Origin: Xanthomonas sp.
GTDB lineage: Bacteria > Pseudomonadota > Gammaproteobacteria > Xanthomonadales > Xanthomonadaceae
DNA length: 64,000 bases
Reading direction: 5' to 3'
NCBI GenBank assembly: GCA_018262705.1
Contig: JADFDQ010000001.1
Span: 248,001 to 312,000, forward strand
Below, piece after piece: positions 1,044-40,014 of the stretch. Within the stretch, counting starts at the first letter, position 1, and each line of letters opens with the position of its first letter. The notes beneath the pieces are model-generated. The model had not been told where the DNA came from, ran no database searches, and saw only the letters and a program-made list of their open reading frames with translations. The translations under genes and the position numbers were made by a program.

Positions 1044-1149
1044 GCCTGTCGCGGTTGCCCACCCTGTGGGGCAAATGTCCCCCGGCATCCGCTTGCTGCG
1101 GATACCTCCTCCTTGATTTTGCCCCACAGGGTGGGCAACCGCGACAGGC
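1044..1149. repeat. nested palindromic element, copy 1
   Basis: Two perfectly complementary 32-nt arms (1044-1075 and 1118-1149) enclose a 42-nt core. The core starts TGTCCCCCGG, carries its own small hairpin (ATCCGC-TTGCT-GCGGAT) and ends CCTCCTCCTTGAT. The same core, reversed and with a different inner hairpin and unrelated arms, recurs at 1200-1297. A third copy is at 27311-27393. It lies 55 nt past the phhA stop, so it could act as a terminator or mRNA-stabilising hairpin. Together with copy 2 it fills most of the 386-nt phhA-fbp gap (990-1375), in which I see no gene. Confidence 0.9.
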
Positions 1150-1199
1150 GAAGCGTTCCCGGCGACAGATCTGGTGGGCATTTTCGTGCGAAATGTAAA

Positions 1200-1297
1200 G
1201 GCATGGCCGGGGGTCTTTGGGTGCGAAATCAAGGAGGAGGCGACGACCGCAGGTCGTCGCCGGGGGACATTCGCACCCAAAGGGCACCGGTCATGCC
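1200..1297. repeat. nested palindromic element, copy 2
   Basis: Arms at 1200-1227 and 1270-1297 are complementary over 28 nt. The inner 14 nt pair perfectly; the outer part has a few mismatches. They enclose a 42-nt core that begins ATCAAGGAGGAGG and ends CCGGGGGACA. This is the reverse complement of the copy-1 core, except that the inner hairpin (CGACGACC-GCA-GGTCGTCG) has a different sequence. The arms share nothing with those of copy 1. It sits 79 nt upstream of the fbp start and would lie in the fbp leader if transcription begins further up. Confidence 0.88.
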
Positions 1298-16199: not shown

Positions 16200-17513
16200 T
16201 TATTCGCTGAGCTTGCGAACCAGTTTCTCCCAGTCATCGTGCAGTTTGCCATCGGTTTCCCGCATTTTCTGGATCTGGCGGCAGGCATGCATCACCGTGG
16301 TGTGATCGCGTCCCCCGAACTCCTCGCCAATCAAGGGCAGGCTGTATTCCGTCAACTCCTTGGTCAGCGCCATGGCGATCTGACGCGGGCGTGCCAGCGT
16401 CCGGGTTCGCTTCTTTGCCAGCATCTCCTTCAGTTGCAGCCCGTAGTAGTCTGCCACGACCTTCTGGATGTTGGGGATACTGATCGCCTGCTGCTGCGCA
16501 CGCCATAGGTCGCGCAGCGTTTCCTGGGCAAATTCCAGCGTCACCGCGCGGCCGAGGAAGCCGGCCTGCGCGGTCAGTTTGTTGATCGCACCCTCCAGCT
16601 CGCGCACGTTGCTGCGCATTTTCTTGGCGATCAGCTGGGCGACTTCGTCCGGAATCGCGACCCCGCGCTCGTGCGCCTTGGACAGCACGATCTGGGCCCG
16701 TGTTTCGAAGTCCGGCGGATCGATCGCCACCGACAGTCCCCAGCCCAACCGCGATTTCAGGCGCGGCTCCAGACCATCGACCTCGCGCGGGTAGCGGTCG
16801 CAGGTGAGGATGATCTGCTGCTTGCCGTCAAACAGGGCGTTGAAGGTGTGGAAAAACTCTTCCTGGGTGCGGTCCTTGCCGGCGAAAAACTGGATGTCGT
16901 CGATCAGCAGCGCGTCGATCTGCTGGAACTGGCGCTTGAAGCGGTCGGCGGTCTTGTCCTGCAGGGCGCGGAAGAAGGCGTTGTAGAACCCGTTGGAGTG
17001 CAGATAGAGGACTTTGGTCCCCGGTTTCAGGCGGCGCATCTCGTTGCCGGCGGCGAACATCAAATGGGTTTTGCCCAGACCGGTGCCCCCGTAGAGCAGC
17101 AGCGGATTGTGGGCGCGCTCACCGGGCTGGTGGGCAGCGTGCAAGGCGGCCGCGCGCGCCAGTTGATTGCTGCGGCCTTCGACGAAATTTTCGAAGGTGT
17201 AGTGGGCTTCGACGTTGCCTTGAAAGACTTCGCCGGCAGCGGCTGCAGACGCCGAAGACATCACGACCGCGCTGGCGCGTTTCGGGGTGCCGATATCGAG
17301 AACCACCTCGGTTCCGAGAGCGAAATGCTCGACCAATTCGCGAATCCTCGGAAGGTAGCGACGCTGGACTTCTTCGTGGACAAAGGAATTGGGCGCATAC
17401 AGCACCAACCCGCCATCGCGCCGCTCGACCAGCAGCGGTTTGAGCCAGGTGCGTACCTCCTCAAGAGGAAGCTCGGTTTCAAGGCGTCGAAGACAGGTGG
17501 GCCAAACGTCCAT
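16200..17513 (-). CDS. dnaA: chromosomal replication initiator protein DnaA
   Basis: AAA+ initiator that binds DnaA boxes and opens the origin. It has 437 residues: domain I to about 85, a short linker, the AAA+ domain with Walker [10 protein letters not shown] and Walker [13 protein letters not shown], and the helix-turn-helix domain IV with the DnaA signature [15 protein letters not shown]. The start [12 protein letters not shown] at 17513 is chosen because domain I begins there; an upstream extension of 31 codons does not resemble the family. It is divergent from rpmH across 196 bp. Confidence 0.97.
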
Positions 17514-27280: not shown

Positions 27281-27310
27281 GCGACCTTTACATTTGGCGT
27301 GATTGCTCAG

Positions 27311-27393
27311 GCAGGCGCGGGCTTCCGGCGTGAATGTCCCCCGGCCGCTGACGCGGCCTCCTCCTAGACTGCACGCCGGAAGCCCGCGCCTGC
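27311..27393. repeat. nested palindromic element, copy 3
   Basis: Perfectly complementary 22-nt arms (27311-27332 and 27372-27393) enclose a 39-nt core that shares TGTCCCCCGG and CCTCCTCCT with copies 1 and 2. The inner hairpin here is GGCCGC-TGAC-GCGGCC. The arms are unrelated in sequence to those of the other two copies. The element ends 3 bp before the fpr stop codon on the minus strand, so it may form the 3' end of the fpr mRNA. Confidence 0.88.
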
Positions 27394-27396
27394 GAT

Positions 27397-28161
27397 TCAC
27401 TTGTTGCTGACGTATTTTTCGCGGCGGATCCGGCCAATGGGCAGGCCTGTGTCCTTGAGCAGCTCGAAGGTGGCATCCACCATGTCCGGATTGCCGCACA
27501 GATAGGCGATGTCGGTTTCCGGATCCGGGGAGAGTTCGGTCAGCACGTTCTGCACATAACCGTGGCGCACGTCGGGATGGTCGTGCAGGCAGCCGGGTTT
27601 GGGCAGCGCGCGCGACAGGCAGGGGATGTAGCGAAAATTGGGATGGACATCGGCGAAGGCGCGAAACTCGGCGCCGTACAGCAATTCGGCCGGAGTGCGC
27701 GTGCCCTGCAGCAGAACGACTTCTACGCACCGTTCGCGCATCAGCTGTTCCAGCTGTGGCAGCATCGCTCGGTAGGGCGTCACGCCGGTGCCGGTGCCGA
27801 TCAGGAGATAGCGGCGGTTGTCGTCGTTCGGCATCAGGCAGAAGCGGCCGTACGGGCCGCTGGCCTCAATGTCATCTCCGATCTGCAGCGCCTCGAACAG
27901 CGCGGTGGCGGCGCCGCCTGCGACATAGCTGACGGCGATGTCCACACGTGCGTCAGCCGGGGTGTCCAGCGCGCGTCCGAGCGCGATCGAATAGCTGCGG
28001 CGGGCGTCGGCCCCGTCTGCGTACTTGAAGTGGATCTGCAAAAACTGGCCGGGGATGCAGGGCAGCATCTGGCCGTCGTCGCGCACGAAGGACAGGTGCG
28101 CCACGGTCGGCGCCAGCATCCTGCGGGAAACGAGTTTGAGCGGGAAACGGGTGATCGCCAC
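27397..28161 (-). CDS. fpr: ferredoxin--NADP(+) reductase
   Basis: 254-residue flavoprotein passing electrons between NADPH and ferredoxin or flavodoxin. The FAD-binding motif RRSYSIA is at about residues 55-61. The NADP-binding loop IGTGTGVTPYRAM is at about 121-133, followed by LLQGTRT, and the C-terminal CGNPDMV is at about 224-230. Length and motif order match the bacterial Fpr subfamily. The start is GTG at 28161. It is divergent from the YadG-like gene across 79 bp, and hairpin copy 3 directly follows its stop. Confidence 0.9.
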   Translation of the reverse strand: MAITRFPLKLVSRRMLAPTVAHLSFVRDDGQMLPCIPGQFLQIHFKYADGADARRSYSIALGRALDTPADARVDIAVSYVAGGAATALFEALQIGDDIEASGPYGRFCLMPNDDNRRYLLIGTGTGVTPYRAMLPQLEQLMRERCVEVVLLQGTRTPAELLYGAEFRAFADVHPNFRYIPCLSRALPKPGCLHDHPDVRHGYVQNVLTELSPDPETDIAYLCGNPDMVDATFELLKDTGLPIGRIRREKYVSNK

Positions 28162-35023: not shown

Positions 35024-35099
35024 ATTGTAGGAGCGCACCGCAGGGGCGCGATGGTTTTGCAGGCGACCTGGTCGCGCACCTGCGGTGCGCTCCTACAAT
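35024..35099. repeat. GTAGGAGCGC-type extragenic palindrome (REP-like)
   Basis: Perfect 21-bp inverted arms (35024-35044, 35079-35099) containing GTAGGAGCGCACCGCAGG, with a 34-nt middle. It occupies nearly the whole gap between divergent tatD and hrpB. The same sequence family recurs at 39934, 46431 and 58154. This is the GTAG-headed REP class known in Xanthomonadaceae and Stenotrophomonas, normally spread by RAYT transposases; none is in the window. Confidence 0.9.
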
Positions 35100-39933: not shown

Positions 39934-40014
39934 CGTAGGAGCGCACCGCAGGGGCGCGATGCGTTTTGGATGAACCGGGCCAAAGCAATCGCGCCCCTGT
40001 GGTGCGCTCCTACG
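39934..40014. repeat. GTAGGAGCGC-type extragenic palindrome
   Basis: 27-nt arms (39934-39960, 39988-40014) pair at 26 of 27 positions and contain GTAGGAGCGCACC and GGGGCGCGAT. It belongs to the same family as the palindromes at 35024, 46431 and 58154. It fills the gap between rluE and the methyltransferase-like gene, both on the minus strand. Confidence 0.88.

Follow-up and report, generated by a model that had tools for sequence, protein, structure and literature searches.

We describe a nested hairpin of about 95–115 nt, made of a variable outer stem, a conserved two-sided loop and a variable inner stem, which apparently represents a small mobile DNA family present in at least two bacterial families; in searches of the open-licence literature, by topic or by exact core string, none of the titles and abstract openings listed describes it. 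We regard it as probably a non-autonomous mobile repeat whose arms are rewritten from each other, whose G-rich strand folds and whose pairs keep a fixed inverted orientation. It was examined starting from the window, a stretch of 64,000 nucleotides of a Xanthomonas genome, in which the core pattern has four matches at three places against 0.00 expected, a count that excludes chance.

Anatomy and distribution of the element

Nested hairpin 1 lies at 1044–1149 with its G-rich strand on the minus strand. Its outer arms (1044–1075 and 1118–1149; 32 nt, 100% complementary) enclose a core of 42 nt (1076–1117), in which the conserved 5′ loop strand with the first inner-stem bases occupies 1105–1117 (minus strand, AUCAAGGAGGAGG) and the last inner-stem bases with the conserved 3′ loop strand occupy 1076–1085 (minus strand, CCGGGGGACA). 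Nested hairpin 2 (1199–1298, G-rich strand plus) has outer arms of 29 nt at 1199–1227 and 1270–1298, 86% complementary, around a 42-nt core at 1228–1269. A covariance model, R1, built from 64 hairpins read on the G-rich strand, matches the two at 1050–1144 minus (99.7 bits) and 1201–1295 plus (91.4 bits). Their RNA fold z-scores are −15.1 on the G-rich strand versus −12.8 on the opposite strand for hairpin 1, and −9.2 and −8.8 on the two strands for hairpin 2; as single-stranded DNA, 1030–1310 folds with z = −11.65, and none of 200 shuffles is equally good. Together they form an inverted pair (1044–1298), minus then plus on the G-rich strand, which is the usual arrangement of pairs, around a spacer of 49 bases (1150–1198) that differs in sequence and length from the spacers of other pairs. 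Nested hairpin 3 (27309–27396, minus; model match 76 bits) has perfect 22-nt arms at 27311–27332 and 27372–27393, unrelated to the arms of copies 1 and 2, and adjoins the 3′ end of a minus-strand ORF (27397–28161). A sequence-only reading had described copies 1 and 2 as sharing a 42-nt core in opposite orientation within complementary arms, which is confirmed, and the core is repeated beyond these two, in the third window copy, in at least 13 copies in the window's genome (R1) and in other genomes. Its remark that the arms have no sequence in common holds for copies 1 and 2 and fails family-wide, where arms are weakly alike.

R1 matches 34 of the 198 genomes searched around the window's genome, its own included (E 0.001), namely 24 of the 25 genomes of its genus (G003 being negative) and 10 others from its family. 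No more than 21 candidates entered scoring in any one genome, which makes high copy counts lower bounds. A loose core pattern hits 37 of these 198 genomes, true elements being present in only part of them, and in 80 loci from 20 genomes read side by side the core is constant, both stems vary and nearly all of them pair. In an even sample of the class, R1 matches 3 of 274 genomes, own included. Among the 120 named loci listed by a collection-wide pattern scan, at least 16 have strong R1 matches, with at least 26 matches of 52 bits or more; the record names with strong matches, among the matches listed, are Rhodoferax, Ramlibacter, Variovorax, Acidovorax, Curvibacter, Rhizobacter, Hydrogenophaga, Comamonadaceae, Burkholderiales, Pseudomonadota, Lysobacteraceae and Stenotrophomonas, the top named match among those listed being a Lysobacteraceae bin (95.9 bits). 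R1 also matches 64 of 150 genomes (E 0.0001; at most 28 candidates scored per genome) in the family to which one Variovorax genome belongs, hereafter the second family. The 16S region of G052, a genome of the window's family, is ~82.5% identical to that of a Variovorax record over 1710 aligned bases, which makes the carriers of the two families distant. Complete-looking elements were also seen in two (L431 and L433) of four viral-collection contigs matching the core pattern, possibly in prophage or host flank.

On the G-rich strand the element reads outer arm, GCGAA, AUCAAGGNGGA, inner hairpin, CGGNGGACAU, UCGC and outer arm, the conserved loop being AAGGNGGA on one side and CGGNGGACAU on the other. 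In 44 model-fetched genus-locus hits, the GG letters are conserved at 98–100% and most neighbours at 84–100%, and the loop linker is A in 66% on the 5′ side and G in 56% on the 3′ side. The linker pairs (5′,3′) parsed in 138 of 161 cases examined, one place being counted twice, are A,G in 110, G,A in 15, A,A in 6, C,G in 5, C,A and T,A in one each and G,G never; 81 of the 138 come from loci fetched by a pattern that itself requires A and G, and the other 57 give 35, 11, 6, 4, 1 and 0 in the same order, with second-family counts of 57, 4 and 2. This tally indicates that the two linkers are interdependent, and a subfamily may be marked by their swap. Each loop strand carries GGNGG, giving four GG tracts in all with short, one-base linkers, a composition that suggests a possible two-layer G-quadruplex. 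In the second family, two mismatches around one outer-stem C-G pair are nearly fixed (56/63 and 58/63) and constitute a second conserved internal loop (GCA/GGA).

Pairing, orientation and folding strand

Because the core pattern is independent of the arm letters, arm pairing across copies is a fair test of the stems. In 99 distinct hairpins from 120 cores (one of the 99 being a spurious core, later dropped), the median alignment score of a hairpin's own arms is 24, against 8 for arms of different hairpins (90th percentile 12); since related hairpins cross-pair, only 60 of the 81 hairpins outside genome G088, and 20 of the 99 overall, lie above the 99th percentile of cross-pairings. When 64 hairpins are laid out as a 24-pair outer stem and a 9-pair inner stem, 92.9% of 2098 cells are paired and 32 of the 33 pairs change on both sides, which bears out the earlier view that pairing is conserved and sequence is not. 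The covariation score is 0.748, against 0.199 for shuffled and at most 0.144 for slid versions; none of 500 shuffles reaches any covariation measure, and slid versions pair only 32.5–43.0% of cells. The second family, whose alignment was fitted to R1, gives 89.9% paired cells, again 32 of 33 pairs, and a score of 0.726 versus 0.172 (63 distinct rows). Distal arms are distinct in 63 of 64 hairpins; arms falling into a few fixed families, the mark of an ordinary set of REP types, are found inside single genomes such as G088 and G077 and not across the family. Arm resemblance, computed for 149 of 159 arms, is 0.506 within a genome, 0.443 between species of a genus, 0.441 between genera and 0.324 when shuffled, so that arms from one genus are no more alike than arms from different ones.

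Neighbouring hairpins obey an orientation rule: over both families, opposite-orientation neighbours stand minus-plus 59 times and plus-minus once, alongside five same-direction cases. R1 searches of 122 sources (121 loci and the window; L409, which repeats L210, was left out) yielded 165 non-overlapping hits, or 159 after removal of six low scorers, and neighbours within 500 bp are minus-plus in 32 cases, minus-minus in 4, plus-plus in 1 and plus-minus in 1, with 86 hits alone. All 27 second-family cases are minus-plus; among the named loci listed, at least nine are minus-plus and at least one is minus-minus, a set that may overlap the second-family one. Spacers between model bounds range from ~33 to 296 nt and are apparently unrelated across loci. 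In the places listed, the start-to-start distance is 155 in all five G518 pairs, 200–201 in four of five G538 pairs and 151 in three of four G543 pairs; the G518 repeated unit comprises pair, spacer and ends, and for G538 the likeness covers both hairpins and, in part, the spacers. Two G088 loci, L241 (2211) and L248 (1862), contain chimeras in which the left arm of one hairpin is joined to the right-hand sequence of the other, with loss of the outer stem, and these look like products of recombination or deletion between two inverted cores.

The stem pairs that are not Watson-Crick, read on the G-rich strand, are G·U in 211 cases versus A·C in 48 (138 of 159 model hits; 21 unparsed). The 80 hairpins outside G088 hold 145 G·U versus 32 A·C, 60 of them leaning to G·U, 2 to A·C and 18 tying; 54 distinct hairpins of the second family hold 117 versus 12 (44 leaning to G·U, none to A·C, 10 tying), and in the alignment the ratio is 100:16 in the outer and 25:8 in the inner stem. 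As strand-neutral decay would give equal numbers of the two, this excess identifies the G-rich strand as the folding strand, and because the hairpins that make up a pair are on opposite strands, the bias is tied to the element's own orientation. Selection on structure, one of two origins envisaged from the window copies, accordingly finds support in that structure matters on one strand. In a control set of 48 other inverted repeats, G·T and A·C number 54 and 50 overall, with strand arbitrary; the same repeats taken singly also lean one way (84 versus 20), so that only a shared direction relative to the core is informative. The asymmetry is absent in one small class, paired hairpins in divergent context (G·U 2 versus A·C 3; 4 hairpins), and hand-made ortholog sets contain 29 double changes, 48 G·U and 26 A·C, the largest set, which includes a doubtful ortholog, standing at 14:15. 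Dependence on transcription of the flanking genes was considered and rejected, since in tandem contexts the asymmetry persists, if weaker, where the G-rich strand is antisense to both of them (25:12, 16 hairpins; sense 26:7, 24 hairpins). Strand-biased mutation may add to the effect, as 18 of the 21 G·U changes confined to one arm in G088 are compatible with C-to-T mutation of the G-rich strand.

Changes in the arms, mobility and explanations

The young family of G088 (57 hairpins, 55 of them usable after removal of the two chimeras) shows 28 one-arm changes and 13 complementary two-arm changes in 1271 paired cells, the latter against ~0.06 expected under independent arm mutation; on the G-rich strand, the one-arm changes leave 21 G·U, 2 A·C and 5 other pairs. 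Four neighbouring sites in L243 and three in L246 are newly matched between the arms, and two mismatches common to most copies are resolved there; L233 resolves both in the opposite direction and L242 resolves one. L233, L243 and L246 each resolve both mismatches in one direction and carry new paired changes besides. L236 has the right arm of L246 at the changed sites and the old left arm, and looks like a half-way state of L246. In L237 and L239, a two-arm change lies 3 nt from a mismatch that persists, so that copied stretches would be short there; L462 and L466 have one change in common, which may count one event twice. In the second family, the 537 cells of 23 hairpins from G518, G538 and G543 (five groups of at least three) show 13 one-arm changes, 11 of them G·U and 2 A·C. 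Two-arm changes in these cells number 10: nine in G538, one in G543 and none in G518. Among 62 ortholog pairs, 17 are alignable (some members in several pairs), 26 are unparsed and 19 have a hairpin in both species with arms beyond alignment; the alignable pairs show 25 double changes, 29 G·U, 10 A·C and 19 other half-changes, and 6 complex changes. Published work shows that hairpins can arise and persist through template switching, with two-arm, multi-base compensatory changes (PMC8794818, in excerpt), and from the pattern of substitutions the concerted changes point to switching from arm to arm; they could instead be two selected steps. Template-switch-like copying, also proposed from the window copies, would then act on the arms, and we think that arm-to-arm copying, combined with acceptance of G·U pairs in the strand that folds, is why pairing is kept and sequence is not. 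With dozens of near-identical copies per genome in half-changed, one-arm and two-arm states, the family can separate template switching from slow compensation.

Three copies in G115, ~92% alike, have the whole hairpin and both arms in common; their three-way identity stops ~5 nt past the stem base, with pairwise matches 4–18 nt beyond. Taken with the arm resemblance within genomes, this indicates that arms come with the core. The genes flanking the window pair, which we take to be phhA and fbp, are separated by 386 bp, or 131 after removal of the element and its arms, and the gap is 133 bp in G011 and 145 bp in G021, the two nearest relatives with conserved gene order and no element. Other relatives with this gene order have gaps of 118 (G007), 149 (G006), 67 (G004), 60 (G018), 49 (G005), 318 (G002) and 1158 bp (G020); the gaps of G011, G021, G007 and G006, read directly, contain no element.

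Some copies belong to larger units. G088 pairs sit in units of 390–449 bp (mostly 410–450) with GGTTCTTC-like ends, one of the nine listed having an 8-bp duplication, AAAAGGAA; G518 and G077 copies sit in units of ~360 and ~265 bp, respectively, with other ends (both read by eye). The window pair has a right-hand GAAGACCC only, without a left partner. In G115 and G083 the shared DNA barely exceeds the hairpin, and in G052 similarity is limited to the hairpins. Several observations lie beside these. In G077, the ~265-bp units at L416, L418 and L419 have CTTCGGGTGGGCGCT-like ends and the core hairpin inside, and two of the three also hold a second, different palindrome, bounded by a repeated CCCGC, which the third lacks. 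L192, L194, L195 and L199 of G017 and L186 of G021 share a longer downstream stretch; it includes another long palindrome, whose inner hairpin is GCAGGCC/GGCCTGC and which seems to represent a further nested-palindrome family. Contigs C36 and C48 of G018 carry two copies of the gene beside window copy 3 with differing flanks, which suggests two mixed strains, and one G018 contig supplies a near-identical occupied partner of G020. Two candidates for a source of mobility were rejected. The terminal repeats of some units are presumably ISL3-like, and an ISL3 transposase (PF01610) gave matches in 4 of 10 genomes at E 0.001, those of G012 and G052 exceeding the cut-off, and none in G088 or G000. 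The other candidate, an autonomous copy enclosing a gene between its hairpins, was sought in G509, in the one wide-spaced set followed, which proved to be a normal pair plus a third hairpin (L488, 1781–3919) around an ORF that we take to be HipA-like.

The sequence-only reading had also offered insertion of a mobile core with inverted copying of the DNA around it, each site building its own arms. We now consider this improbable as the general origin of the arms, which travel with the core in G115 and resemble each other within genomes, and the nearest empty phhA-fbp gaps match the length of the flanks alone. What speaks for it is the comparison of an occupied site, L305, with the near-identical empty L292: a single CATGCTTCG stands in L292, and L305 has two in inverted repeat, one forming the ~9 nt at the outer end of the left arm and the other, inverted, at the right. 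Flank copying is possible in single cases such as this one, although L292 can also be read as the remnant of an internal deletion that left a short hairpin; of the occupied and empty sites compared, phhA-fbp goes against flank copying and L305/L292 partly for it. Just as improbable in our view is that the hairpins are mere passengers inside several unrelated MITEs, with neither mobility nor role of their own. The G088, G518 and G077 units would fit such a history, but the sharing limited to the hairpin in G115, G083 and G052 and the window copies that lack such a pair of ends do not, and the same loop in unrelated MITEs would itself need explaining.

Under another reading, the element is an ordinary REP family mobilised by a RAYT (TnpA-REP) transposase that works on a single DNA strand. 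This would account for inverted doublets and strand-specific hairpin recognition, both of which are given as REP features in the excerpts of PMC2817692 and PMC8266576, and GGAG stands before the inner hairpin. We hold this reading to be very improbable nonetheless: RAYT-type REPs have a GT(A/G)G head beside the palindrome (PMC2817692, in excerpt), in place of which the element has AAGGNGGAG; none of 30 Y1_Tnp loci (L310–L339, up to 1.5 kb on each side) has both core halves, L313 and L324 having one half-motif match each; and the hairpin carriers G014, G015, G019 and G027 gave no Y1_Tnp match (G015 being 80% complete). A structured RNA under ordinary cis selection, in which the transcribed G-rich strand serves an mRNA function such as stability, termination or protein binding and stems are compensated stepwise, is a more serious contender, if still rather unlikely. 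It would explain the covariation and G·U excess of both families, the same-locus hairpins of several species with their predominance of G·U over A·C half-changes, and the gene contexts of the hairpins (45 convergent, 32 tandem, 11 divergent and 33 unclassified), a bias expected both of harmless mobile repeats and of 3′-end elements. It sits less well with the asymmetry of antisense hairpins, with the scan of 900–1500, which covered copies 1 and 2 and found no promoter- or terminator-like site and no intrinsic terminator (GC stem then T run), with the shortest spacers, which leave little room for two divergent promoters, and with the multi-site two-arm changes within single young copies.

In the mobile repeat that we favour, the unit would consist of one nested hairpin or of two inverted to each other in a fixed way. 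In each, the G-rich strand would be the one that folds, and the conserved purine loop, with GGNGG on both sides and possibly a quadruplex, would be recognised or would give the fold its effect, the stems needing only to pair. The hairpin would move with its arms, alone, as a pair or within MITE-like units, through a putative moving enzyme and with any host function equally conjectural; that the scanned Y1_Tnp loci, the PF01610 search in G088 and the G509 set yielded no such enzyme counts against this reading. In place, the arms would drift, one arm mutating first; while DNA is being synthesised across the folded strand, the growing strand may switch template and copy one arm from the other, so that both change together, and changes leaving G·U on the folded strand would survive, others being corrected or lost. 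The computations themselves show the family, its covariation, the rule of orientation, the strand asymmetry, the joint movement of arms and core and the concerted changes; switching as the cause of these changes, the quadruplex, the enzyme and a host role are inferred. In its full form, a purine-loop element whose fold stalls synthesis on one strand, drives the switching, rewrites the arms and so repairs its own structure, this scheme is tentative and to our mind still doubtful. If true, it would describe a self-repairing element free to change its arms completely while spreading between distant bacteria.

Comparison with known systems

The element resembles MITEs in that its pairs ride in MITE-like units in G088, G518 and G077; it differs in that such units vary between genomes whereas the hairpins do not, and in that other copies lack such ends. 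Conserved loops, strong covariation and a single folding strand recall the structured RNAs of Rfam. At the gathering score, however, a search of six loci found only a tRNA, and at E up to 1 (window 1–30000 and seven loci) no match on the element reached gathering, the weak matches being microRNA hairpin models (best E 0.0036, with 30.1 bits where the cut-off is 100). A single-strand structure that is backed by covariation, has no Rfam match and is common in at least two bacterial families is thereby added to those known. Elsewhere in the window, 17013–17093 gives a sub-threshold match to the AsdA antisense RNA (29.8 bits, gathering 52), probably by chance. Integron attC sites likewise act as a folded single strand with variable but paired sequence and have conserved boxes at the stem base, whereas the conserved part here is the central loop.

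With REP, BIME and REPIN sequences the element shares short intergenic palindromes, inverted doublets and a strand-specific hairpin in the proposed mechanism, but its nested hairpin is much longer, exceeding the 20–40 bp given for RAYT-type REP palindromes in the excerpt of PMC3733652, and it is the loop that is conserved, not the stem. The window also contains ordinary REP-like hairpins with GTAGGAGCGCACC, at 35024–35099 and 39934–40014, which resemble the Xanthomonas REP given in the excerpt of PMC2817692; with the top named R1 match in a Lysobacteraceae bin, they suggest that the window derives from the Lysobacteraceae (Xanthomonadaceae). The closest parallel to the arm changes is quasi-palindrome correction, the maintenance of hairpins by template switching, with its two-arm, multi-base compensatory changes; the tests set out in the excerpt of PMC8794818 concern ribosomal RNA genes, whereas the present case is a mobile repeat family with large arm turnover, and thus offers, in two distant bacterial groups, a natural system for the question of how pairing in long stems persists through turnover of their sequence.
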